Source: a virus. Taken from it: a stretch of DNA of 64,000 nucleotides. A program made the translations under genes and the position numbers. Below the pieces are notes generated by a model that saw nothing but the letters and a program-made list of their open reading frames with translations, ran no database searches and had not been told where the DNA came from. Of the stretch, positions 1 to 59,813 are shown in pieces; position 1 is the stretch's first letter, and every line of letters begins with the position of its first letter. The stretch covers positions 1 to 64,000 of the IMG/VR virus record IMGVR_UViG_3300025652_000049, one strand, 5' to 3'.

Positions 1-3000
1 TGCTATTGTTCTCGTCTGCAATTAAAGCAATATCAATTGCTCCAACTGGAAGGTGCTTAATCTTTTTAAGATTATTAGGAACATAGTAAGCCGTTCTATT
101 AGCTATCTCTCTAATGCGAGTTTCTTTAGCTGTATTGTTGTTCTCTGAATTAATTAAATGTTTTTCATCTAAAGTAAATTTAGGAATATGATATAGAACG
201 CTTTCACCAGTTGATGATTTTACATTTACAAACATACCCTTGCCTTCTTTAAGAACAGCTTTTACAGTAGGGCTATTCATTATATCAGGTAGTGCTTCGT
301 TTTTGTTTTTAACATTAAGCCCTTTCTTAAGAGTAATTTTTGCTAAAGGATTATTTCTTGAAGCAGCCATTTTTAAAGCAATGTTTGTCTCAAGTTTCCT
401 AAGTACATTTCCTGATATAGCTTGGTCTTTATTTTGAGACATTTGATTTGACGCGTAATTAATTAATGAATTAGTTTCTTCATCAAAGAATATAGAAATA
501 CTCTGAGGGCCCGACCAATTATTATTAACGAGGTCATAAAGTATTAATGCATCTTTTATATTATTTGGAAGTTCTGCAAATTCATTCTGAGCAGCTTTAC
601 GTTCTTCAGGGTTCATAGTTGGACCAGAGAAGGATCTATTAGCTGATATATATTGTGAGTTACCAGACAGAGATAAATTAAGAGCCTGGTTAAATAATAT
701 AGAGTTATCATAATCAGAAACAGTTTCTTGATTATTCCCATCAACAGCAGTAATTCCTTTCTGTAACGGATCCAAATATCTTTGTAGCTCTACAAATATA
801 GATTTCGGATTTCCCGGAGTAAGTAAAGCAACAGCTTCATCCATATTAAAATTATTCAACCCCAACAATCTTGCAGTTTGAAAGACTTTAATACTATTTG
901 AAATATCTTCTACTTGAGATGTCGTTAATCTATCAGCACCAATCTTATTCACTAAAGAATTAAGCACTTTATTAGTGGCACCTTGATATACTGGGTTCAA
1001 CACTTTCAAGTGGCTTAAAACCTCTCTTGCTACATTCTCGTAGTTTTTCAAATCAGGGTTTGTTCTAAACTCAGGAGTAAACTTCAAAGTTCTTTTTGCT
1101 ATTTCTTTTTTGGTTTTTGGCGCAGCCATAACCTCATCATAACGATCTAGTTCTTTTTCTAAGACGTGTGGGTTTACATGAATCTTCTTATGACCTCCCA
1201 TTACTTTAGAAACCTTTTGAGTTTCTGAATTCATTTCTTCTAACATTCTAAACAATTCCAAAACATTACCAAATTGCGAACGATTTAATATTTTGCTTTT
1301 TCCTGTTTTTTTATCAATGCTAGTATCAATACTTAATTTTGGTGTTTTAGCTTTCTTAATCTTAAGAGCTTTATAGGCTTGATCAAAAACATTAGAGTAG
1401 TTTGACTCTTCATTATAAATGTTTTTCATTTTAGACTTTAGCTTTCCATATACCTTAGCTGGCTCCGAGTTAAGTATTAAAGCAACTTCCTCTAAACTTA
1501 CCCCTAGGTTCACTAACAATGTAGCTTGTGCTATATTGAAGCTGTCAATACCTAGCTTATCAGCAAAGTGGTGACTTGCATTATCCAATTGGATATTTGC
1601 TAATTCAGCAGATTTTTGATTCCTAGAGTTTTGACCTACCTCAGCATCTCTAAACCTATTGTAAACAGCACCATTTATACTAACTGGTCTAGTAAGTTCA
1701 ATTTCATATGCTGCATATAAGTTCGCAACCTTATGAAGATTGAATATAGGCCCAACATTGTTTTTGGCAACTAGTGTATTATCATAATCTGCGGCTCTCT
1801 GCTCAGGAGAACCGGGCAAATGATACTCTTGATTGTTTTTAAATGTCTGTTCGACTTTCTTAACAACTGCTTCAGTAGAAGCTTTAATATCCATTTTAGC
1901 CTGTATCTGTTCAGCCATAGCACTAGAAGTCCAGTACTTTGTCATTTTATCAAAAGCTTGATTCCATTCAGAGTATTTCTTATTATCTCCTTTGTGCTGA
2001 ATGTAAAGAGCATCACCATCGTTATCAGCTCCAATGATATCATTAAATTCAGAAGATACCATTACTTGATTACCATCACCGTCGTTGTACGCCATAACCT
2101 CAAACACACCTGTTGAAGATGGCCCATGACCAGGAATCCTAGAAGCGATTACAGTTTGCCCTTTTACGTGATATCCAATATGAACACCATTTTCATTGAA
2201 TTCTTCACCAATAAACTTATTAGCTTCTTCATTAGTACTAACACCATGAACGCTTCTAGCTACTTTTAAAGCTGCATATTTAATAGCATTTAAGTCTTGA
2301 AGATGAGTCTGGGTTTCTCTTTTCTTTTTTGGATCACCTGCATTGTAATGATATAAAACACCTTTTCCAGCTTGATTATAAACAGTCATTTTCTGCCTAG
2401 CCATTAAAGGCTTTTGACCTGACTTAGAAACCATACTCATATGACGAGGTAATTCAATTCCAGCAGGATTAATTGAACCGTCGGTATTCTTAGTGTAACC
2501 TTCTAATTTGTCTTTAATACGAACATCTGGCTTTTGGTGAGCGATAGTACCCGGAGTTAACAACTTGTTTCCCGCGACACGTAAAGTCTTAGCTAATTGG
2601 TTTGTTACAATCTCTGTGATATAAGGATGAGACAAAGAACCACCATCTTCAAAGATAATTCTCTGGGCTTGATCCATATCTTCTTTATTAAGACCTGATT
2701 CAATAAGAGCGTGATAATCTTCCATTTTACCACTAGCAATCTTTTCAAGTATTTCATTGAAAGCTTTTTGCTTCTGGTTAGATATGTAGTCTTGTATTTC
2801 AATAGCTAAGTCCATATTACCATTAGCGGTAGCACCTACAATAACCGAGTTAATCATTTGGGTTGGTGTAGTAGATAAACTTTTTACAACGTCCATTAAT
2901 TGTTGAGGTCCGAAATTATAACTTTCTAAACCTACGAAATTTCCTTTTTTGTCATAGAACATTTTATCATAATACTCCATTACACCCTCATGGTCTTGTG

Positions 3001-6000
3001 ACAATGCTTCCATTGTAAACTTAGAACCTAAATCAGTATGTGTTAATTCACCAGTAGTCTTGTTTTCGTCAATAAATTTATCTGGATATAGACTTCCTTT
3101 ATCTGAGGATTGAGTAACAGCAATTGCAATATGATTAAACGACTGATCCGTTAAATCCATACTAGGCTCAACTCCATATTTATCTTTATGTTGCTTATCA
3201 TACTTAGCTTCACGAGCTGTAAGTATATTGTAAAGAGGATGCCCCTTTCTAGCGATTGTTGTGTATCCTTTTAAGTAAGCTAGTTTCCCCGCAAATTGTG
3301 GGTTGTCTTTTTCAACAGAAGCATTTAATAGTTTGAAACCATCGTTCATATCAAATACACCAAGCCCAAGGTTTACTAATTTCTGTGCTGTCTTTTCAGT
3401 AATGTACATAGCACCATCGGTACCAGAAACACTATTGTTTGCAATACTATCAGCTATTGGTATTGCTTCTATTTTGAAGTTCTCATTTTTTGCTGACATA
3501 ATAGGAGAACCGTTAGACTTAAATCTTTTTATTCCTCCGGCCTTTCCTTTGACTCCTGGAATAAATATCTCTCTTGAATAATATCCATTAAGAACACTAT
3601 TGACATATTGTTCAGCAGCTAGGTTTCTACCTTCAGAAGTAAGAACTCCGTCTTTATAGTAATCTGAAAATTGTTTCTTCTTAGAAAAAATATCTGCATT
3701 CTCTCTCATGAATTTAACATTGTTGTTAATTCCTTTAAGAAGATTCTTTTTAAACTCGGCTTTTGTTTGTTTCTCATCAGGAAACAATTCATTGTGCATA
3801 TGAAGTACACTGTTGATCAACTTTCCATCACTGTTAAATTGTAATTTTCTTGATGAAGGAGTTTTTAAAGTTTCTGATATAGTTCCTTTTGGATTACTAC
3901 TAGAAAGAACATTATTAAAAGCATTGTTAAATTCTTTTTCAGTTATCTCCGAAGTATAAGATTGAACAACTGCCTTTGGGTGTGTTCCTACTGGATTCTT
4001 TTTAAAGAACTTCCCGTCTCTTTCGAAAAATTCATAATCAAGCATACCATCACCATCGTAAACTTCTTTTTTAAATGACTTGATTCCTTCTGGAGTTGTT
4101 AAAACATCAAACAAATCTTTAACATCATGTCGTTTCATATTCATATAGAACTTTCTAGGAGAGTCTGAAAAAGCACCCATACTCTGTAAGTATGAACTTG
4201 CTTTTCTTCCATTACCAGACCTCGAGGTAGCAACATACTGTAACATTTCATCAATACGCTGTTCGAATGAAGTACTGTTTTTATAAGTATTCCCTTTGTT
4301 GTTCTGTAAATCTTGAATACCATGAGTTATACTAATGGTTGGCAAGATTCCTAATTGAAACTGGTCGTATATGTGACCTAACAGCAAGTTAGGCTCATAA
4401 GCCTTGCCTAAGAGCTTTGCTTGTTTTTTAGATACATGAGAATACCTGTCAATGAATACCTCTCTAGTAGGCTTGTTTCCGTTGTTGTCTGCTGACATAA
4501 ACTCAATCATGTTATCGACTTCCTTAGTCAAATGATTGTTTGTTATTTTAACAGCCTCCATATTGCCCTCGGCATTTACAACAGTGCTGAGGTTTGTAAA
4601 CTTACGATTTGTAGAAATTAATGCTTCTGCAAGTAATCTACCTTCATATAGATTTACCTGCCCAACAATTCTCTTATTGGTTCCCCTAACCTTCTGATAC
4701 AACAAGTTCTGTTTGATATATCCAGAAATCAAAGTTTCAATTGGTATCATAGTTCCTTTATGAATCAAGACACCTTGCTCCATAACCTTAGAATACTTAA
4801 AGTTTCTAGGGCGATACATGTCGATAACATTAAGATAATCCTGTTCAGTGTCTTTACCTTCTTTAATGTTTTTAACAGACTGTAGAAATGAATTCCACTT
4901 ATCAGAACCTACTTGTTTACCACTAGCATCTTTTACAGATCGCTCTTTGTAAACTCTTGCTAGCACATCTTGTGTATCAGTAATTTCTCTTTGGTTCAAG
5001 GAGTTTACCATCTCATAACTACCATCTGCCTTTAAAGCAGTACGAATACCATTGATATGCTTTCCATTAGAAAATATAAAATGTATTCCAGAAAGCAACT
5101 GCTCATTAGAATCAGGATATACCTTTTTCATAAATCTATTGAAAGCAGCTATCTCCTTAATTTCTGAATTCTCAATATTGTAAATAAACGCTGCTGCGCT
5201 TTTGTTTTCAATAGCAAGATTATACATTACAGACTCCAACAACTCTTGGTTAAGAATAGGAGAGTTTTTACGATTAGTTTTTTGAGTCCTAGTGGCTTTA
5301 AGATGTTTTAACCTGAAAGCCTTATTGTAAATCGTTCCGAATCTTTTTAAAATTCTAGTTGCTGATTTTTTATGAGAATCAAAGTCTTTGTTTTGAAATG
5401 AGATACCATCTTCTACATCATCATCGTAGTCATTGGTTTCTTCGTAAAACTCATCTTGAAAGATGTTTTTTAAAGACCGGCCATTAGTAGCCTTACGTTT
5501 AATTCTCTCTTGAATCTCATTTAAAGCCTCAACATACTGACTGTCATTTTCTCGAGCTCTCTGGTCTAATCCATAAGCATCAAACTTAACTCCTTTGGTT
5601 ACAGCTTTGAATGTATTAAATAAATAGTCCTTCATATTACCTACAGGAAGAGTCTTATCTTCTGCAAGTTCTTTAAGCATTCTATCTACTCCTGTTTCAG
5701 CTTCAATTAATTCGCCTCTTTTCCGAAGCATTCCCCACCATTTCTTAGTATCACGTTTTCTTCTACCTTCATTCTTTAAGGTAAAGACCATATCAAAATT
5801 AGCAGCCAACGGCCCTTCTAAGGTCTTAGCTAACATTTCTTCAATTAAATACTTTTGCTCAGTAAGAGGTACGGTTTTTAAATCACCAGAAGCAACCTCT
5901 TTAGCAATCTGATCATTAAGTTCATCAATTTGAGCTCCATTAAAACCTAGTGCGTTTGCAATCTGTCCTTTTGTAAGTTCTTGGTAGTTTCCTTTTTCAT

Positions 6001-9000
6001 CTAAAACAAGACGATATAGGGTAACATCATCATAACGCTCTCTGATATCTTTAACAAGTTCTTTGTTTGCTAACGATGCTTTAACAAGGGCTTGAGTCTC
6101 TGGCGTATTAATACTAAGTTTAAGATATATATGCGACATCTCGTGCATAAAAGTCTTATCCTGATTAGGAGCCTTTTCATCTATAAAAATAGTCGCGGCC
6201 AATGCATGACCTAAACCTTGTGAACCTACAGATTCAAACAAGTTTCTTACTATAATCAATTGCGCTGGGTCATTGGTGTTTGGAAACATTGTCTTAAGAG
6301 AATGATTCACCACAGCCATTGAGTGCCTTCTTGATGGACTAAGTAAGTTATAGGTTGTGTACCTGTTGAGGTAATTATCTAATTCATTCTGAGAAAGATC
6401 TGTTGCCTCAGTAACCTTAATACCTTTTATCTTATTAAGAACGCTTCGAACAAATCTTGTCTCAAGTATGTTTTGAAGCTTAACCTTTCCTTCAGCTCTT
6501 GATTCACGACTATCAAAAGCTACTGTTTCTGAATTGGCTACTTTCTTAGCATTCTTCTTCCAGTTCTTTTTAGCTTTATCAGCCTTAGCCTCTTCAACGC
6601 TTTCTAAATCTGGTTGTTTCTTTTTATTAGTAACCTCATCTTCTAAAAATGCTTGTTCCTCTTTACTTAAATCTTTATCGACTTCAACCTTCTCTTCGTC
6701 TTTATCGTCGGTATCTTCATCACCTTTTTTAGTTCCATCTTCATTAACACCTGGTTTAATTATCGGCCCCTCTGGAGGATCAATAACTGCATCAGTAGAA
6801 GCATCCTTTTCAATCTTTAAAATTTTTCTAGTTATTTCACTTAAAACAGCATCCGGATTATTTGCACGAATTTCTTCTTCCCTAGTAGAAAGCTTTCCTT
6901 CGGACATAATCTTATCAGCGATATCACTTAAAATACCATCTGGCAAAGTTCCTGTCTCTTCAAAGTTTGACCAAACATCATCACCAATAACTTCATTCTC
7001 ATCAACAGTAGTATCGTCTACCATTTGTTCAGCTTCTTGCTGGGCTTGTTCTTGGGTTTTAGGAGTTCCGTATGCTACACCATCTATAATAGTAGTTCCG
7101 CTAGTTTTTTGTTCTTCTACTTTTTCTATCGGGCCTTCAGCTTCTTCTTGAGCTTTAGCTTGTGCTTCTTCTTCTGCTGCAACTTCACCCGCGGCTTCTT
7201 CATCTATTTCAGGAGTTTTAAACTTATCCTGAATAGACTTAGCCATAGCTTTTACTTTGTCTGTAGCATTTGCAAGAGATGGCATTTCAAATATACCTTT
7301 AGCTTTCTTTTCAGCTTTCTCTGCCAAGTCTAATGCTTCAACGGTAATTCCCATTGCGGTAGCTTTTGCTTTCTTTCCTGCGTTTAAAGCACCATCTATA
7401 AACTTTTTACCTTTACTACGCGTATCTCCTTCACCAGTGTACTCCTTCATTTGTTGAGAAGACAATCCACCAATAACCATTTCATTACCAAATTCATCAA
7501 GTACAATTTCAACCTCTAATGGATTTGCTTTTTTTCCTAGTATTAAATTTTCTTGGTTTTGACGTGCCTCAGCTTTTAATATAGAAAGAGCCTTTACTCT
7601 GGCAGTATATATTTGTTGAGTTTCAGAAATACTCTTTTTCTTATCCTTAATCTCTTGAGCACTCTTAGCATCTATTGCATTTATAACCTCAAGCTTTTCT
7701 TCGGCAATAGCTTTATATTCTTCTAATTTTTTATTGAAATAGTTTTCATCAGCAATATTAGTAAGCAATGCTTTCTTACCTTTTACATTTAAACGATCGG
7801 CTTTTTCAGACTTTTCTTTAAAGCCAAAATACATAGCATCTAAATCAGGTATTTGCTCTTCGTTTATATTTCCATTTTCTAAAAGTGAATTACGAAGGTC
7901 TACATATGCTTGGTCACCATATTTTTCATCAATAGCAATATTACCTACTTGATGCTCTATGTGATATTCTTGATAAGCAAGTTCATCTTTAGTTCCTTGC
8001 TTATTTGTTATGTTAGTTAGGTTTTCAATAGAATTATGTAATCTTAAAGCATCATCAGCTTTTTGATTTACAAGTGTGTTTAAATTAAAAGCACCACCAC
8101 TCACAGCACCCATTACACCAGCTAATACTTTAGTTCCTTTATTCTCTTTAGAATTATAGAAATCCATGAATGAACTTACATCTAACAGGTCTGGATGTGG
8201 AACACCAGTCTTATCAGCAACAGCTTTCTTAGAAGCCCACTCTTCAAATGTTTCTTGAAAGGATTCTTCAATTCCCTCAAAAGCCATTTTCTTTGATAAT
8301 CGACCTAAACCTTTTATTATTGGTGCAACATCATAAGTAAATAAACTAGAAGACATTTTTGCTCTAGCAGCAGCAGTTCTAGGTATGCCACCTTTAGACA
8401 TTGGATTAAGACTTTTTAATGCCTTATACCCACCTCCATAAGTTAAACCCCAAGAAGCCATATCAGCAGCAAGCCAAGCGGAATTATTACGCATAGTTCC
8501 AGCTGCCATATCTCCAAGGTCTTCTTCGGAAAACATTTTTACCTTTTCACCCTGTTCATTTGTATAGGTTAGGTCTTTGTTGTTATTAACGACTCCTGCC
8601 GCGTTTAACATACCTGCATAAACATTACTAGCAATACCCCCACCAATTGCACTAGCAGTTGCATTACCTAATGTAGTAAGCCCTATATCAGTTCCTAGCT
8701 TACCCGCAAGACCTGAACCTTTTCCAGCAGCACCAAATATTTCAGCACCTAAAGCAGTCTTTCCAACTTGCCCTGGTAGTTTTGTAACACCTTTCTTTAA
8801 AAGTGATTTAGCAATAGCTGCACCTCTACCCCCAATATATACAGACTGTACAATCTGAGGTATCATACTAGCTATATTCTGACTCCAAAACTTAGGATTG
8901 GTAACCGAACCCCAACTTAAATTTTCATTCTTTAATTCTTCAGGTATGGCGCTTTTAAAGTTTTCAGCAACATCGGTACCAACATCTTGAAGCATTCTAG

Positions 9001-9439
9001 ATAATACCGTTCCATCAGATATAGTAGGATCAACAATAGCACCCGCCATTTGAACCAAATCACCAGTACCTTTGATAATATAATTACCAACACCTTGCAT
9101 TATATTAACTCCTGCTTCTTCCATCCAACCACGAGCACTATACTCTGGACTCCAAGAATCAGGATCCTCTTCTAAGTCTCTAGTGTTTTGCCCAGCAATA
9201 GTACCTAGCTTTTGATTTGAATATATTTCATTATTAACAGCTTCTTGGTCTTGAGCGTTAGCTTGAACGTTATCAGGTAAGGCTAAATTTTCTTGCTCTT
9301 GCCCTTGCCCTTGTTGTTCTTGCATTTGCTGTCCTCTTTCGGCAGGTGAAAAAGACAAGTCTTGTTCTCTTTCTTCTACTGGTGGAGCAGAACCATTTCC
9401 GTTTTTTGAATTATTAAAAATTTCAAAGATATCTGGCAT
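1..9439 (-). CDS. Giant virion RNA polymerase / metallopeptidase protein (partial, runs off left edge)
   Basis: The frame is open from the ATG at 9439 to the window edge, at least 3,146 residues. Residues 2472-2476 read DNDGD, the metal-binding DxDGD loop of YonO-like single-subunit polymerases such as the virion polymerase of Cellulophaga phage phi14:2. It is preceded near residue 2430 by RIPGHGPSS and followed at 2618-2624 by LDNASHH, both typical of this polymerase core. Residues 1099-1103 read HEMSH, a zincin HExxH motif, with a possible third ligand in the later EEMLAKTL segment. Residues about 130-330 are Gly/Ala-rich and hydrophobic, and about 740-970 form an acidic Glu/Lys/Asp linker. 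The protein is last in the cargo cluster, so it is probably packaged and injected. The domain fusion in one frame is seen; self-cleavage by the peptidase is inference. Confidence 0.92.
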   Translation of the reverse strand, partial: MPDIFEIFNNSKNGNGSAPPVEEREQDLSFSPAERGQQMQEQQGQGQEQENLALPDNVQANAQDQEAVNNEIYSNQKLGTIAGQNTRDLEEDPDSWSPEYSARGWMEEAGVNIMQGVGNYIIKGTGDLVQMAGAIVDPTISDGTVLSRMLQDVGTDVAENFKSAIPEELKNENLSWGSVTNPKFWSQNIASMIPQIVQSVYIGGRGAAIAKSLLKKGVTKLPGQVGKTALGAEIFGAAGKGSGLAGKLGTDIGLTTLGNATASAIGGGIASNVYAGMLNAAGVVNNNKDLTYTNEQGEKVKMFSEEDLGDMAAGTMRNNSAWLAADMASWGLTYGGGYKALKSLNPMSKGGIPRTAAARAKMSSSLFTYDVAPIIKGLGRLSKKMAFEGIEESFQETFEEWASKKAVADKTGVPHPDLLDVSSFMDFYNSKENKGTKVLAGVMGAVSGGAFNLNTLVNQKADDALRLHNSIENLTNITNKQGTKDELAYQEYHIEHQVGNIAIDEKYGDQAYVDLRNSLLENGNINEEQIPDLDAMYFGFKEKSEKADRLNVKGKKALLTNIADENYFNKKLEEYKAIAEEKLEVINAIDAKSAQEIKDKKKSISETQQIYTARVKALSILKAEARQNQENLILGKKANPLEVEIVLDEFGNEMVIGGLSSQQMKEYTGEGDTRSKGKKFIDGALNAGKKAKATAMGITVEALDLAEKAEKKAKGIFEMPSLANATDKVKAMAKSIQDKFKTPEIDEEAAGEVAAEEEAQAKAQEEAEGPIEKVEEQKTSGTTIIDGVAYGTPKTQEQAQQEAEQMVDDTTVDENEVIGDDVWSNFEETGTLPDGILSDIADKIMSEGKLSTREEEIRANNPDAVLSEITRKILKIEKDASTDAVIDPPEGPIIKPGVNEDGTKKGDEDTDDKDEEKVEVDKDLSKEEQAFLEDEVTNKKKQPDLESVEEAKADKAKKNWKKNAKKVANSETVAFDSRESRAEGKVKLQNILETRFVRSVLNKIKGIKVTEATDLSQNELDNYLNRYTTYNLLSPSRRHSMAVVNHSLKTMFPNTNDPAQLIIVRNLFESVGSQGLGHALAATIFIDEKAPNQDKTFMHEMSHIYLKLSINTPETQALVKASLANKELVKDIRERYDDVTLYRLVLDEKGNYQELTKGQIANALGFNGAQIDELNDQIAKEVASGDLKTVPLTEQKYLIEEMLAKTLEGPLAANFDMVFTLKNEGRRKRDTKKWWGMLRKRGELIEAETGVDRMLKELAEDKTLPVGNMKDYLFNTFKAVTKGVKFDAYGLDQRARENDSQYVEALNEIQERIKRKATNGRSLKNIFQDEFYEETNDYDDDVEDGISFQNKDFDSHKKSATRILKRFGTIYNKAFRLKHLKATRTQKTNRKNSPILNQELLESVMYNLAIENKSAAAFIYNIENSEIKEIAAFNRFMKKVYPDSNEQLLSGIHFIFSNGKHINGIRTALKADGSYEMVNSLNQREITDTQDVLARVYKERSVKDASGKQVGSDKWNSFLQSVKNIKEGKDTEQDYLNVIDMYRPRNFKYSKVMEQGVLIHKGTMIPIETLISGYIKQNLLYQKVRGTNKRIVGQVNLYEGRLLAEALISTNRKFTNLSTVVNAEGNMEAVKITNNHLTKEVDNMIEFMSADNNGNKPTREVFIDRYSHVSKKQAKLLGKAYEPNLLLGHIYDQFQLGILPTISITHGIQDLQNNKGNTYKNSTSFEQRIDEMLQYVATSRSGNGRKASSYLQSMGAFSDSPRKFYMNMKRHDVKDLFDVLTTPEGIKSFKKEVYDGDGMLDYEFFERDGKFFKKNPVGTHPKAVVQSYTSEITEKEFNNAFNNVLSSSNPKGTISETLKTPSSRKLQFNSDGKLINSVLHMHNELFPDEKQTKAEFKKNLLKGINNNVKFMRENADIFSKKKQFSDYYKDGVLTSEGRNLAAEQYVNSVLNGYYSREIFIPGVKGKAGGIKRFKSNGSPIMSAKNENFKIEAIPIADSIANNSVSGTDGAMYITEKTAQKLVNLGLGVFDMNDGFKLLNASVEKDNPQFAGKLAYLKGYTTIARKGHPLYNILTAREAKYDKQHKDKYGVEPSMDLTDQSFNHIAIAVTQSSDKGSLYPDKFIDENKTTGELTHTDLGSKFTMEALSQDHEGVMEYYDKMFYDKKGNFVGLESYNFGPQQLMDVVKSLSTTPTQMINSVIVGATANGNMDLAIEIQDYISNQKQKAFNEILEKIASGKMEDYHALIESGLNKEDMDQAQRIIFEDGGSLSHPYITEIVTNQLAKTLRVAGNKLLTPGTIAHQKPDVRIKDKLEGYTKNTDGSINPAGIELPRHMSMVSKSGQKPLMARQKMTVYNQAGKGVLYHYNAGDPKKKRETQTHLQDLNAIKYAALKVARSVHGVSTNEEANKFIGEEFNENGVHIGYHVKGQTVIASRIPGHGPSSTGVFEVMAYNDGDGNQVMVSSEFNDIIGADNDGDALYIQHKGDNKKYSEWNQAFDKMTKYWTSSAMAEQIQAKMDIKASTEAVVKKVEQTFKNNQEYHLPGSPEQRAADYDNTLVAKNNVGPIFNLHKVANLYAAYEIELTRPVSINGAVYNRFRDAEVGQNSRNQKSAELANIQLDNASHHFADKLGIDSFNIAQATLLVNLGVSLEEVALILNSEPAKVYGKLKSKMKNIYNEESNYSNVFDQAYKALKIKKAKTPKLSIDTSIDKKTGKSKILNRSQFGNVLELFRMLEEMNSETQKVSKVMGGHKKIHVNPHVLEKELDRYDEVMAAPKTKKEIAKRTLKFTPEFRTNPDLKNYENVAREVLSHLKVLNPVYQGATNKVLNSLVNKIGADRLTTSQVEDISNSIKVFQTARLLGLNNFNMDEAVALLTPGNPKSIFVELQRYLDPLQKGITAVDGNNQETVSDYDNSILFNQALNLSLSGNSQYISANRSFSGPTMNPEERKAAQNEFAELPNNIKDALILYDLVNNNWSGPQSISIFFDEETNSLINYASNQMSQNKDQAISGNVLRKLETNIALKMAASRNNPLAKITLKKGLNVKNKNEALPDIMNSPTVKAVLKEGKGMFVNVKSSTGESVLYHIPKFTLDEKHLINSENNNTAKETRIREIANRTAYYVPNNLKKIKHLPVGAIDIALIADENNS

Positions 9440-47723: not shown

Positions 47724-47738
47724 AAACTCATAAAAGAG
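47724..47738 (+). repeat. 15-bp early-region element, copy 1
   Basis: AAACTCATAAAAGAG. Identical copies at 48198-48212 and 50542-50556. The ends CTC and GAG can pair. Copy 1 lies 44 bases before the first plus-strand gene. Confidence 0.75.
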
Positions 47739-48264: not shown

Positions 48265-48337
48265 TAATTCTGTCGTGTAGTATGTGCTACACCTGATGAG
48301 GTTGTTAGACCGAAACAGTTACTTAATACTTATTCTA

Positions 48338-48613
48338 ATGGTACATTCCTTCTCATCCGACTATAAGAACGGCAACATCACTATCACCTTCACCGATGGT
48401 GATGAGGTTAAGACGATCTTCTTTGTTAATAGCACTGTCGCATACGACATCGCTTATAACACACTTCAATGGCGATATGATATGTCTGGTTACACAGAAT
48501 ATCAAGGAGACTCTGGCTACTTAAAAGCCATCACACACATGCGCAAATGTGGTCTCTCATTCATGAAGCATCCACAAGATTGCGACATGTTTATTCCCCA
48601 CTATAAAGCATGA
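48338..48613 (+). CDS. Small early protein, unknown
   Basis: 91 residues from ATG at 48338. The extended GTG frame from 48284 would add an implausible hydrophobic lead next to the terminator. The protein is beta-rich with aromatic residues (GNITITFTDGDEVKTIFFVNS), two Cys and two Met-rich turns near the C-terminus. No family recognised. It lies between the terminator at 48238-48264 and the structured non-coding region. Confidence 0.65.
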   Translation: MVHSFSSDYKNGNITITFTDGDEVKTIFFVNSTVAYDIAYNTLQWRYDMSGYTEYQGDSGYLKAITHMRKCGLSFMKHPQDCDMFIPHYKA

Positions 48614-48651: not shown

Positions 48652-48672
48652 AGTAAGCGAGATCTGTTTACC
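48652..48672 (+). promoter_or_regulatory. 21-bp operator-like element, copy 1
   Basis: AGTAAGCGA then GATCTGTTTACC. It differs at two positions (first base G to A, and A to G in the middle) from the copy at 52296-52316. Outer arms GTAA/TTAC are inverted. Confidence 0.65.
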
Positions 48673-48693
48673 CAAATCTATTAATCTATTTTG

Positions 48694-48714
48694 GGTAAGC
48701 AGGATCTGTTTACC
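48694..48714 (+). promoter_or_regulatory. 21-bp operator-like element, copy 2
   Basis: GGTAAGCAG then GATCTGTTTACC, one base different from the copy at 52296-52316. Its left arm pairs with the right end of copy 1 (TTTGGGTAA with TTACCCAAA), so the two can form a 9-bp stem. Confidence 0.65.
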
Positions 48715-48952
48715 GCCCGATTACGATGATGCCAATGTTTACAGGGCTTCACACGTTTTACCTAAAAAAGTCGTATAGTATATACTATATATACCGACGG
48801 ACTAGGACGTGGCAGAGACTGACAGAGTGTGCTCAATCAGTATGTGTCCTCTTAGTCTAACTTGGTAAACCACTGCGGTTCTCTGCGGTGTTATACTAAT
48901 GTTATCTGTCTTATTATAAGCTGTCATTGTTTGTTATTAAAAAGGCGTAGTT

Positions 48953-49477: not shown

Positions 49478-49531
49478 GTATCAATGCATGTATGGTATGA
49501 TTACCTAGAGGTTCGATTCCTCTTCATGCAG
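49474..49531 (+). ncRNA. tRNA-like hairpin (T-arm plus acceptor), not a full tRNA
   Basis: AGAGG-TTCGATT-CCTCT at 49507-49523 is a perfect T-arm with consensus loop. TGCATG (49485-49490) pairs with CATGCA (49525-49530), an acceptor-like stem. Between them lies only GGTA-TGAT-TACC, so D-arm and anticodon arm cannot both exist. A competing stem CTAGGTA/TACCTAG (49474-49480 with 49502-49508) overlaps. May be a tRNA mimic, a tRNA remnant or an attachment-site relic. Confidence 0.45.
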
Positions 49532-49576: not shown

Positions 49577-49948
49577 ATGAGAAAATTATCTTTATTACGT
49601 GAATCTCTTATGCAGTCTAAGACTGCTGCTACTTCTATGGAAACCTTCAACAACTTAAGGTTTACTAGTCTATCCTCTGCTTATGAACATAAGATTGTTG
49701 CTGACAAAATCAACTCAAACAATTACAAAACTATGCTTACTGCTAGTGGTATTGTTTGGGGTGCTGCTATTGGAACTTATGTTGCAGGCTCAACACTACT
49801 TGTTGCAGGCGCAGTATTAGCAGGAACTACTGTTGTTGGCACTGCTACTGCTCTTGCTGTTAACAACAGGCGTATTATTAAAAACTCTAATGAGTTTTTG
49901 AATAACGGAGATTACATTACTCCTGAGCCTATAACTATTAATCTTTAA
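49577..49948 (+). CDS. Small protein with Gly/Ala-rich membrane segments
   Basis: 123 residues from the ATG in ACATTTATTATG. A longer frame from 49484 would cover the tRNA-like hairpin and is rejected. A polar N-terminal 60 residues, then two close Gly/Ala/Val-rich membrane helices (MLTASGIVWGAAIGTYVAGSTLLVAG and later AVLAGTTVVGTATALAV), then a polar tail. Resembles the 84-residue early protein in composition. Membrane-active early function likely. Confidence 0.7.
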   Translation: MRKLSLLRESLMQSKTAATSMETFNNLRFTSLSSAYEHKIVADKINSNNYKTMLTASGIVWGAAIGTYVAGSTLLVAGAVLAGTTVVGTATALAVNNRRIIKNSNEFLNNGDYITPEPITINL

Positions 49949-49958
49949 TCTATAAACT

Positions 49959-50114
49959 ATGTACAATCCTCGTCTTATTATCTCAGCTATGAGAACTTAT
50001 GGTTGCTCTGCTATTGAAGCTATTCAATGGCTTGGGCAACCTCATGAAAATGCATTCTTATTTACTAACGGCAATGTTCATATTCCAGAGTGCTGGAATA
50101 CTGATGCCATTTAA
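49959..50114 (+). CDS. Tiny protein, unknown
   Basis: 51 residues, MYNPRLIISAMRTYGCSAIEAIQWLG then a short strand-rich end. The first half could be one helix-turn-helix-sized unit but no DNA-binding signature is clear. Starts ten bases after the previous stop in a TATAAACTATG context like its neighbour at 50384. Confidence 0.55.
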   Translation: MYNPRLIISAMRTYGCSAIEAIQWLGQPHENAFLFTNGNVHIPECWNTDAI

Positions 50115-50126
50115 AACCTATCTATT

Positions 50127-50369
50127 ATGGATTCTTATTTCCTTGCACAGTTATTACGTCTAAAGATACACCTAATCACTATCAATGATTGTGATGATGT
50201 TGTTGCCTACTATACTGAAAAGTTTGTCAATACTGATAAACACGTCTTCATTTATACTCATGGGTACTTCAGTACCAATTCTAATAGTTGGGTTAATAAA
50301 ACCCATATCGTCACCTCCAGTGAGGATCTTGAGTATCACCTAAAGAACTTTGGTAAATCTTTTTACTAA
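50127..50369 (+). CDS. Small early protein, unknown
   Basis: 80 residues, strand/helix mixed, with YTHGYFSTNSNSWVNKTH in the middle and no membrane segment or motif. The start lies in CTATTATG, 12 bases after the previous stop, and the stop is 14 bases before the alpha-CTD-like gene, so these small genes form one transcript. Confidence 0.65.
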   Translation: MDSYFLAQLLRLKIHLITINDCDDVVAYYTEKFVNTDKHVFIYTHGYFSTNSNSWVNKTHIVTSSEDLEYHLKNFGKSFY

Positions 50370-50383
50370 AAACTATATAAACT

Positions 50384-50551
50384 ATGAATTATAATATTCC
50401 TGTTATTGAATTAGACCTATCCATTCGGCTTCTCAATGTGTTAAAGCGTAATGGTATATTCTTTTTGTCTGACATTAAAAACATCGATAATGTTAAATGG
50501 CTTGACAAACGTACCAAAGATGAGCTATTGTTAGCTCTCAAAAACTCATAA
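50384..50551 (+). CDS. Stand-alone RNA polymerase alpha C-terminal-domain-like protein
   Basis: 55 residues. IELDLSIRLLNVLKRNGI at 8-25 aligns with the bacterial alpha-CTD core (E. coli E-L-T-V-R-S-A-N-C-L-K-A-E-A-I) and SDI at 29-31 matches G-D-L. The two main DNA-contact positions of E. coli, Arg265 and Asn268, correspond to Arg15 and Asn18. LDKRTKDEL at 40-48 resembles L-G-K-K-S-L-T-E-I, with about four residues missing before it. The rest of alpha is absent, so it cannot assemble polymerase and may bind promoter DNA or the host enzyme. Too short for usual gene finders. The stop overlaps a 15-bp element. Confidence 0.75.
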   Translation: MNYNIPVIELDLSIRLLNVLKRNGIFFLSDIKNIDNVKWLDKRTKDELLLALKNS

Positions 50552-50556: not shown

Positions 50557-50609
50557 TACCACGTATTAAAGAGTTTCTTGCGTGTCTAAATAACGAAGCC
50601 TCTTAACCC

Positions 50610-50629
50610 TAGCCCTCTTTTGGGGGCTA
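50610..50629 (+). other. G+C-rich hairpin without U-run
   Basis: TAGCCCTC (50610-50617), loop TTTT, GGGGGCTA (50622-50629) with one G-U pair. Lies 46 bases before the next start. Probably a leader or processing structure; terminator unlikely because no T-run follows. Confidence 0.55.
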
Positions 50630-50674
50630 ACATTGCGCGATGTCAAGCGCATTATAAGTGTGACCACATTTATT

Positions 50675-52286: not shown

Positions 52287-52304
52287 ATAATTCTCGGTAA
52301 GCAA
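52278..52304 (-). promoter_or_regulatory. Promoter of the 134-residue gene
   Basis: Minus-strand TATATTTG at 52285-52278 (exact TAnnTTTG), a TTG at 52304-52302 with a 16-base spacer, start codon at 52250. The -33 side lies inside the 21-bp element 52296-52316, a good repressor site. Confidence 0.6.
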
Positions 52305-52316
52305 GATCTGTTTACC
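52296..52316 (+). promoter_or_regulatory. 21-bp operator-like element, copy 3
   Basis: GGTAAGCAA then GATCTGTTTACC. Differs from copy 2 by one base and from copy 1 by two. It lies between the divergent genes at 52250 and 52355. Confidence 0.7.
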
Positions 52317-52354
52317 GTACTACATTTATTAATTAATTATTTAATACATTTATT

Positions 52355-57278: not shown

Positions 57279-59813
57279 ATGACACTTAATTTTACAGATG
57301 ATACTGTATATAACTATGAACCTGGGAGCATTGACAACATACGTCGTATGCTCCCTAAGTTATATGAGGAACAAGTTGAAGATGTTCTTAGAGCTGAAAA
57401 CAGATACCTATCAGGTGGAAAAGGATATCTGTTCACAAATGGAACAGGTACCGGAAAAACCTATGTAGGTCTTGGTGTAGCTAAGAGATTTTGGGCTCAA
57501 AACAAAAGAGATATATTGATTGTTGTTCCAACAGAACAGAAGTGTATTGACTGGATTTCAGAAGGTAGTGTTTTAAACCTTACGATATCTATGCTCAAAG
57601 ACACAAACGACGGAGGTAGTTTGTTTTGCGTAACTACTTATGCAAACTTCTACCAGAACGATGCATTGATTATGAGAAATTTTGATTTAATAATATATGA
57701 CGAATCTCATTATTTGAATCAGAACCAACAAGGCAAAGAGACAAGCTACCTATCTAAACACAAGTTAATATCAAAGCTACCATCTGCTTGCAAGGAGTTA
57801 GCAAAGGGTGTTATTTCAGAATACCCGCAGTTTAATGATGGTGATGATTATGAAACTTGGAGATGGCAATTAGATGCTTGGAACAAACAGCTTACTCACC
57901 ATACTGTTAGTCTGGTTGGTAGTACTAAGGTTTTGTTTCTATCAGCAACTCCTTTTGCTTATCACAAGTCTATTAAATATGCTGATGGTTGTTTGTTTGA
58001 TATAAACGAAACCATTAACGAAGGTTATAAGGATCATCCTTCATACAATGAGCCAGTAGGCTTTGACAATTTCCTTGTACAAAACTTTGGATATCGTATG
58101 CGTTACAATAAAGTGACCATACCCGAAAGTGGTGTAGATGTAAATCTTTTAGAACGACAGTTCTTTGAGAAACATAGAGAAATGGGTGTAATGTCTACAA
58201 GAGTTTTAAAGCTTGATGTAGATTATTCTAGAGATTTCATAACCGTAGAAAGTGAGATAGGAACTTTCATTAATAGTGGTATGGAACTTTTTCATCATTC
58301 AGATTTCAGAGAGAAATATAAATACTTATCTGAAGTTGCAAGTAAAAAATACAATTACTTGTATGTGAATCAACTTTTAGAAGCTGTTAAAGCTCAAGAA
58401 GTAATTCCACGAATTCAATCTCATTTAAACTTAGGAAGGAAAGTTGTTATATTTCATGGATATAATAACTCCGTAGTATCACACCCATTTCATTTCGATT
58501 TAGACAAGCTTCTTACATCTGACACTGAATGGATGTTTTCTTTGATTACCAAAGAGATTGCTCGTTTCAATATGGAATATCCTGAATATGTAAATCTTGA
58601 CTTATCTAGGTTAGGAAACACCAGAGAAGTTATCTCTAGTGCATTTTATAATATGAAGCAATACAATGGTACTGTTTCTAAAAAGAAACGGAAAGATTAC
58701 ATAATTGACTTTAATCATGGAGAAACCTATTCTATTCTAGTACAAACTAGAGCAGGTAGAGAAGGTATATCACTACATGATACTGTTGGTGATAAACAGC
58801 GTGTTCTTATCAATCTAGGGCTTCCAGTCGCTCCTACCGAAGCTATTCAAACCGAAGGTAGAATATACAGAAGTGGAAGCAAGAGCGATGCTATCTATGA
58901 ATACATAACGCTTCAAACTAATTTTGAGCGATATGCATTTGCAACCAAGATAGCAGAGAGGTCACGTACTGCCGAAAACCTAGCTATGGGTAACTTAGCT
59001 AGGGATTTACATACTGGCTTTACCGAGGGTTACTTAAACTCTCACTATGAACCTCCTACCTTAGACCAAGGTAAAGGCGGTAAAGAATCAGATAGGCAGT
59101 TGCTAGACATTACAGATTTCGATAGAGCAAAAACATATTATTTTGCTAAAGGAAAGAAAACATCTAGTAATAAGTCTAGAGAAGGTACAGATTACTATGC
59201 GACTCCTGAGCCATTAGGATATAAGATGGCAGAGTGGTTAGATATTAAAGCTGACAAACGAGCATTAGAACCTAGTGCTGGTCATGGTGCAATCGCGAGA
59301 TGGTTTCCTGAACACTGTAACAATACATTTATTGAACCTAGTTATGACTTACAATCACAATTAGTTATCAATTCAGGAAAAGCAAGAGTTATTCAAGACA
59401 GTTTTGAGAACTTTAATAATCATAACAAGTTTGAGTACATAGCAATGAATCCTCCTTTTGGACAAGCTGGTAAAACAGCTATGGAGCATATTGACAAAGC
59501 TGTTACTATGCATATGTTTCGATATAGTCAAGAAGGATCTAAGTTGCTTGCTATCGTGCCTCAAGGTAATTCAATGCAAAAGAGATTAGATGCTTTTTAT
59601 GAAAGCGTTCTCTTTGATGATTTCATAATGACAGGTGAAATTATATTACCTAGTTGCACATTCTCTAGAGCAGGAACTAATGTACATTGTAAAATAATAC
59701 GAATAGTACATAAAAATACTCCTGGTGCAACATACAATCTAAAGTCAAAGGATTTTAGTTACTGTAAAGACATCGGAGAATTCTTCGATGAAATAGAACA
59801 TTTTAATTTTTAG
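57279..59813 (+). CDS. SF2 helicase fused to an adenine methyltransferase-like domain
   Basis: 844 residues. Helicase part: GTGTGKT at 55-61 (motif I), DESH at 141-144 (motif II), SATP at 222-225 (motif III), QTEGRIYRSG at 524-533 (motif VI). The C-terminal domain begins YYATPEPLGYKMAEWL at 639-654, then EPSAGHGAIA at 664-673 (SAM-binding motif I) and MNPPFG at 723-728 (the N-P-P-F catalytic motif of N6-adenine methyltransferases). Related fusions act in phage anti-restriction (DarB-type) and as strawberry-notch-like proteins. Both active sites look intact. It may modify or unwind incoming or replicating DNA. It ends the operon with an A/T-rich gap of five bases before the next small gene. 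Confidence 0.9.
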   Translation: MTLNFTDDTVYNYEPGSIDNIRRMLPKLYEEQVEDVLRAENRYLSGGKGYLFTNGTGTGKTYVGLGVAKRFWAQNKRDILIVVPTEQKCIDWISEGSVLNLTISMLKDTNDGGSLFCVTTYANFYQNDALIMRNFDLIIYDESHYLNQNQQGKETSYLSKHKLISKLPSACKELAKGVISEYPQFNDGDDYETWRWQLDAWNKQLTHHTVSLVGSTKVLFLSATPFAYHKSIKYADGCLFDINETINEGYKDHPSYNEPVGFDNFLVQNFGYRMRYNKVTIPESGVDVNLLERQFFEKHREMGVMSTRVLKLDVDYSRDFITVESEIGTFINSGMELFHHSDFREKYKYLSEVASKKYNYLYVNQLLEAVKAQEVIPRIQSHLNLGRKVVIFHGYNNSVVSHPFHFDLDKLLTSDTEWMFSLITKEIARFNMEYPEYVNLDLSRLGNTREVISSAFYNMKQYNGTVSKKKRKDYIIDFNHGETYSILVQTRAGREGISLHDTVGDKQRVLINLGLPVAPTEAIQTEGRIYRSGSKSDAIYEYITLQTNFERYAFATKIAERSRTAENLAMGNLARDLHTGFTEGYLNSHYEPPTLDQGKGGKESDRQLLDITDFDRAKTYYFAKGKKTSSNKSREGTDYYATPEPLGYKMAEWLDIKADKRALEPSAGHGAIARWFPEHCNNTFIEPSYDLQSQLVINSGKARVIQDSFENFNNHNKFEYIAMNPPFGQAGKTAMEHIDKAVTMHMFRYSQEGSKLLAIVPQGNSMQKRLDAFYESVLFDDFIMTGEIILPSCTFSRAGTNVHCKIIRIVHKNTPGATYNLKSKDFSYCKDIGEFFDEIEHFNF

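Follow-up and report, generated by a model that had tools for sequence, protein, structure and literature searches.

A free-standing 55-residue protein resembling the RNA polymerase alpha C-terminal domain in a distant crAss-like phage

The locus and its phage

The stretch of DNA analysed here (the window) covers positions 1-64000 of a virus record that is 76,423 bases long. On its plus strand an open reading frame (ORF P0002) of 55 codons begins at an ATG at 50384, ends with a TAA at 50549-50551 and encodes MNYNIPVIELDLSIRLLNVLKRNGIFFLSDIKNIDNVKWLDKRTKDELLLALKNS, a product resembling the C-terminal domain of the alpha subunit of bacterial RNA polymerase (RNAP), the alpha-CTD. Structural genes occupy the minus strand, and from about 47.7 kb small genes and then replication genes follow on the plus strand. 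The immediate neighbours of the 55-codon frame are small genes of no assigned family, not recombination genes. The features discussed below are as follows.

2..9439, minus strand: giant ORF of at least 3146 amino acids, truncated where the record ends; from its size, motif and crAss-like context a candidate virion RNA polymerase
49577..50369, plus strand: three small upstream ORFs (49577-49948, 49959-50114 and 50127-50369) from the ORF listing
50370..50383, plus strand: A/T-rich start region lacking a Shine-Dalgarno sequence; a repeat (D8) that recurs ahead of ORF 49959 (TATAAACTATG)
50384..50551, plus strand: alpha-CTD-like ORF; PF03118 at 28.5 bits, held-out profile at 38.3 bits, weak coding score
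50402..50506, plus strand: residues 7-41, corresponding to alpha-CTD helices 1-3 (alignments A7 and A8; HMM alignment of residues 9-41)
50426-50428, plus strand: R15, aligned with Arg265
50435-50437, plus strand: N18, aligned with Asn268
50501..50506, plus strand: codons 40-41 (L40, D41), site of a five-residue deletion (MAFFT gap placement and single-gap scoring)
50507..50545, plus strand: residues 42-54, alpha4-like last helix, KRTKDELLLALKN against KKSLTEIKDVLAS (AlphaFold2 helix 42-54)
50610..50629, plus strand: G+C-rich hairpin TAGCCCTC-TTTT-GGGGGCTA 3' of the ORF; the fold of 50590-50640 has -14.0 kcal/mol, z -1.39

Family profile searches gave no match over the cut-off for any of the three small upstream ORFs, which probably share a transcription unit with the alpha-CTD-like ORF. 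The downstream hairpin, with no T run after it, is a possible end of this unit. The ORF lies among small plus-strand genes, next to the structural block that runs divergently, and from this position we infer an early gene. Codon statistics rank its frame best of six at a weak 0.01 bits per codon, as with several of its neighbours. The alpha-CTD-like protein recurs, 100% identical, in a second IMG/VR contig of this phage (99.96% identity over 13.4 kb), which rules out a one-off assembly error.

Several repeated and structured elements mark the surrounding region. The sequence AAACTCATAAAA recurs at 47724, 48198, 50542, 53972 and 56275, on the plus strand only, and three of its copies span a stop codon, that of the alpha-CTD-like ORF among them. 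The leader ACATTTATTATG lies directly at start codons on the plus strand (49568, 50666, 52346 and 63454) and is possibly a promoter or a translation start signal common to early genes. Between 46900 and 54600 there are 17 terminator-like hairpins against 3.3 expected from shuffles, an excess that suggests many short transcription units. A near-palindrome, GTAAGC..GATCTGTTTACC, is confined to this region in three copies (48653-48673, 48695-48715 and 52297-52317), the first two of which fold with each other at -30.2 kcal/mol (z -5.35). At 48267-48321 on the plus strand, running into the beginning of a small early ORF (48284-48613), lies a candidate type III hammerhead ribozyme whose CUGAUGA, GAAA and GUC core is intact; it matches Rfam RF00008 at 32.3 bits, under the gathering score of 48.5, with E 6e-4 on 7.7 kb. 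A tRNA-like mini-structure at 49485-49530 (plus strand) combines an acceptor-like stem with a single 4-bp arm and a canonical T-arm (GAGGTTCGATTCCTC) and lacks an anticodon arm; ARAGORN reports no tRNA there. Further along, 57279-59813 on the plus strand encodes an 844-residue DarB-like antirestriction/helicase-methylase protein. Its best relatives, at about 40% identity, come from phages that infect Proteobacteria, which is odd for a crAss-like phage.

The terminase matches Crassvirales terminases at 23-29% identity to named members, and the genome also encodes a crAss muzzle domain, a portal and a head protein; on these matches the phage is a distant crAss-like one. Its giant ORF carries an RNAP-like ADNDGD motif (DNDGD at 2012-2026), and homology searches with it returned no polymerase match. 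From motif, size and context we regard it as a candidate virion RNA polymerase, one that would suit the giant polymerase known to be injected by Crassvirales, which is responsible for early and middle transcription, with late transcription probably left to host RNAP (PMC10136315).

A trimmed domain with a predicted alpha-CTD fold

The first-pass annotation had proposed a free-standing 55-residue alpha-CTD-like protein, and had named a profile search and a structure prediction as checks. The position of the ORF, a match over the Pfam cut-off and a held-out profile confirm the observation. Pfam RNA_pol_A_CTD (PF03118) matches residues 3-34 significantly, its 28.5 bits exceeding the cut-off of 23.8 (E 1.3e-6), and when the whole 76.4-kb record is searched this is the only PF03118 match over the gathering score, at 26.1 bits. 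A profile that leaves the protein out and uses eleven further alpha-CTD-like domains of fetched loci, plus E. coli, B. subtilis and Goe8, scores it at 38.3 bits (E 3.9e-11, residues 9-41); the next of 805 window ORFs reaches 5.2 bits, and no shuffle out of 20,000 exceeds 13.9 bits. The domains in this profile were mostly found from searches with the 55-residue protein, so that the sample is not wholly independent; the Pfam match is independent. Homology to the alpha-CTD, as judged from sequence, is firm for residues 7-41 only. The protein lies far under all cut-offs of the rpoA equivalog models and lacks the N-terminal dimerisation and assembly domain of full RpoA, and no PHROGs family matches it (best E 0.042). 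Leucine-rich repeat proteins that topped a plain phmmer search of the PDB were rejected as repeat-driven matches aligned piecemeal, and 'phage' records 70-87% identical to Bacillus alpha-CTD were left uncounted because they look like bacterial rpoA contamination.

Using an E. coli alpha reference whose sequence and numbering were checked against the PDB, we aligned R15, N18 and K21 with Arg265, Asn268 and Lys271, positions that are invariant among the relatives; the earlier claim that the first two are kept thus holds. E9 and D11 occupy the positions of Asp259 and Glu261, and E47 that of Glu302. Between W39-L40 and G-K-K-S the relatives all carry about five extra residues (RFRNG, KTPNL or similar), where the present protein continues directly with D-K-R-T. 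When all single-gap placements were scored, a five-residue deletion at this point was best, at 52.9 against 38.6 for the gapless alignment, which was dropped. As a result E. coli K291-L295, the loop that joins helices 3 and 4 and includes Asn294, has no counterpart. The equivalent of Gly296 is Asp, K298 and S299 are conservatively exchanged for R43 and T44, and the equivalent of Cys269 is Val. Asn294 and Gly296 of E. coli alpha are known DNA-contact residues, and the alignment indicates that both have gone with the second helix-hairpin-helix loop. Beyond this point the resemblance fades: the C-terminal stretch alone is weakly alpha4-like (p = 0.08 against shuffles) and profile alignments stop at residues 41-44. 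The likeness of LDKRTKDEL to the L-G-K-K-S motif, which had been put forward on first reading, is thus weaker than claimed and needs the deletion just upstream.

AlphaFold2 guided by an alignment of 11 sequences predicted an alpha-CTD fold (pLDDT 82.7, pTM 0.59); neither of the outcomes that would have spoken against the first-pass annotation, a missing profile match or another fold, was seen. In a Foldseek search of the PDB with this model the alpha-CTDs of Synechococcus and B. subtilis were best, accompanied by many full RNAP alpha chains; all of the matches listed were RNAP alpha chains or alpha-CTDs, with TM scores of 0.6-0.8 (0.79 normalised to the query), probabilities up to 1.00 and a best E of 5.7e-3, none being below 1e-3. 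Since the guiding alignment consisted of alpha-CTD relatives, toward whose fold the model could be drawn, we take the match as support rather than proof. Predicted from the single sequence, the model had a pLDDT of 62 and no PDB match.

Relatives and distribution

None of 48 other crAss-like records, many or most of them partial, contains a PF03118 domain, and the same holds for three short contigs (4.6-10 kb; L012-L014) whose TerL exceeds 60% identity. Weak matches to the 55-residue protein in two crAss-like records were rejected, the ORF in question being hydrophobic, membrane-like and free of an alpha-CTD match. Searches started with the adjoining genes, in order to find kin of the early region, returned the same phage only, and conservation of the protein is seen in one near-identical contig. 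From its absence from the 48 records, though many are fragments, the alpha-CTD-like protein does not appear to be a core function of crAss-like phages.

Elsewhere the module is common. Scanning IMG/VR turned up ten other phage-like contigs with alpha-CTD-like domains; the proteins that contain them have about 100-180 residues and varied extra parts. Unrelated phages carry the module fused to other N-termini, and several phage proteins in BFVD are already annotated as alpha-CTD. One of these contigs (L098:3893-4198) encodes an alpha-CTD-like protein of about 100 residues between RecE-like exonuclease and Sak4-like annealing genes, followed by an SSB-like gene. The closest local match to our protein is bacterial: over residues 9-34 it is 69% identical, with LKRNGIFFLS unchanged, to the N-terminal domain of an 898-residue protein from a Pseudobutyrivibrio MAG (L004), which is large and multidomain, keeps the hairpin and contains a sigma-70 region 4 motif as well. 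Besides an rpoA-sized ORF, that genome holds two more ORFs with an alpha-CTD. Found in such varied phage and bacterial proteins, the module is, by sequence matching, widely reused.

Against this background the 55-residue protein shares with bacterial RNAP alpha helices 1-3, the R265, N268 and K271 positions and the predicted overall fold, but has neither N-terminal domain nor linker and differs in the deleted second hairpin and the two exchanges at Gly296 and Cys269. Phage-encoded modules outside rpoA are also present in annotated proteins of Mycobacterium phage Mithril, Rhodococcus phage Finch and uncultured Caudovirales, in Bacillus phage Goe8 gp005 and in IMG/VR loci L095-L109. The phage proteins examined have about 100-210 residues, an extra N- or C-terminal part and the hairpin, whereas ours is the module alone, hairpin-less. 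Phage alpha-CTD proteins are thus an already known kind, of which the present one is a smaller, hairpin-less member; a protein such as this was not described in the open-licence PMC papers searched. A small hypothetical family of 95 positions, NF005841/PRK07758, may be similar in size and in an alpha-CTD-like region, as judged from a weak match to Goe8 gp005; its model gives no match to the 55-residue protein at E <= 1.

Possible functions in the infected cell

We tentatively favour an early modulator of host RNAP, acting more as a decoy or tether through protein contacts than by competition for UP-elements, a reading to which we give somewhat less than an even chance. The protein would appear early in infection, when the injected polymerase is reading the phage genome, and would take the place of the host alpha-CTD on sigma region 4 or on an activator; alpha-CTD-dependent host promoters would be damped, or host polymerase shifted toward phage promoters. 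Protein contacts are the likelier means, since E9 and D11, the protein-facing acidic residues of the 261 type, are kept, whereas the hairpin and the equivalent of Gly296 are not. Such a modulator would have a use because in Crassvirales the virion polymerase reads early and middle genes and host RNAP probably the late ones (PMC10136315). A stricter version, in which a minimal mimic has shed the DNA-binding hairpin to become a pure protein decoy that displaces host alpha-CTD from sigma or activators during injected-polymerase early transcription, is distinctly unlikely as it stands. The occurrence of the module in non-transcription settings, such as the L098 recombination cluster, counts against a modulator.

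That same cluster, with its RecE-like, Sak4-like and SSB-like genes, and the presence of the module in varied larger proteins of bacteria and phages speak for the main rival, which we consider rather unlikely: a small DNA-binding or nucleic-acid accessory protein of the helix-hairpin-helix type, perhaps serving recombination or replication, which uses the alpha-CTD module and is unrelated to RNAP. Such a role would, however, call on the second hairpin for DNA contact, which the protein has lost, and the genes adjoining it are small ones of no assigned family rather than recombination genes. Loss of the hairpin also weighs on the version put forward by the first-pass annotation, a DNA-binding decoy on UP-elements or A/T-rich promoter DNA that competes with host polymerase. 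The equivalents of R265, N268 and E302 are kept and R43 and T44 are conservative, but Asn294 is deleted, Gly296 is Asp and Cys269 is Val, and even the intact alpha-CTD binds DNA weakly when isolated; we find this version improbable. What stands of that annotation is a free-standing alpha-CTD-like protein in a crAss-like phage; its proposed competition on DNA is weakened by the hairpin loss and Gly296 exchange, but it may make contacts by its protein-facing side. Just as improbable, in our estimate, is a degenerating or non-functional remnant of a gene captured from the host or another phage and kept by chance. The deleted hairpin, a barely recognisable C-terminal part, a coding score near zero and the lack of relatives in other crAss-like records would fit it, against which stand an intact frame, a start region common to the neighbouring gene (ORF 49959), the kept core residues of helices 1-3 and a compact genome.

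If the protein does modulate host RNAP early, it would share its target function with T4 Alt and ModA, which modify Arg265 of the host alpha-CTD (PMC2988021), and with Rac of phiKMV-like phages, which removes the domain (PMC7552054). All of these work on the host alpha-CTD as enzymes or modifiers; none is a copy of the domain (PMC2988021, PMC7552054). The known phage routes to the host alpha-CTD are thus to modify it or to cut it off, and a phage's own trimmed copy would be a third, carried here by a protein small enough for direct testing. More broadly, the alpha-CTD module recurs in unrelated phages with different fusion partners, a pattern that suggests a neglected class of phage transcription or DNA-binding factors.
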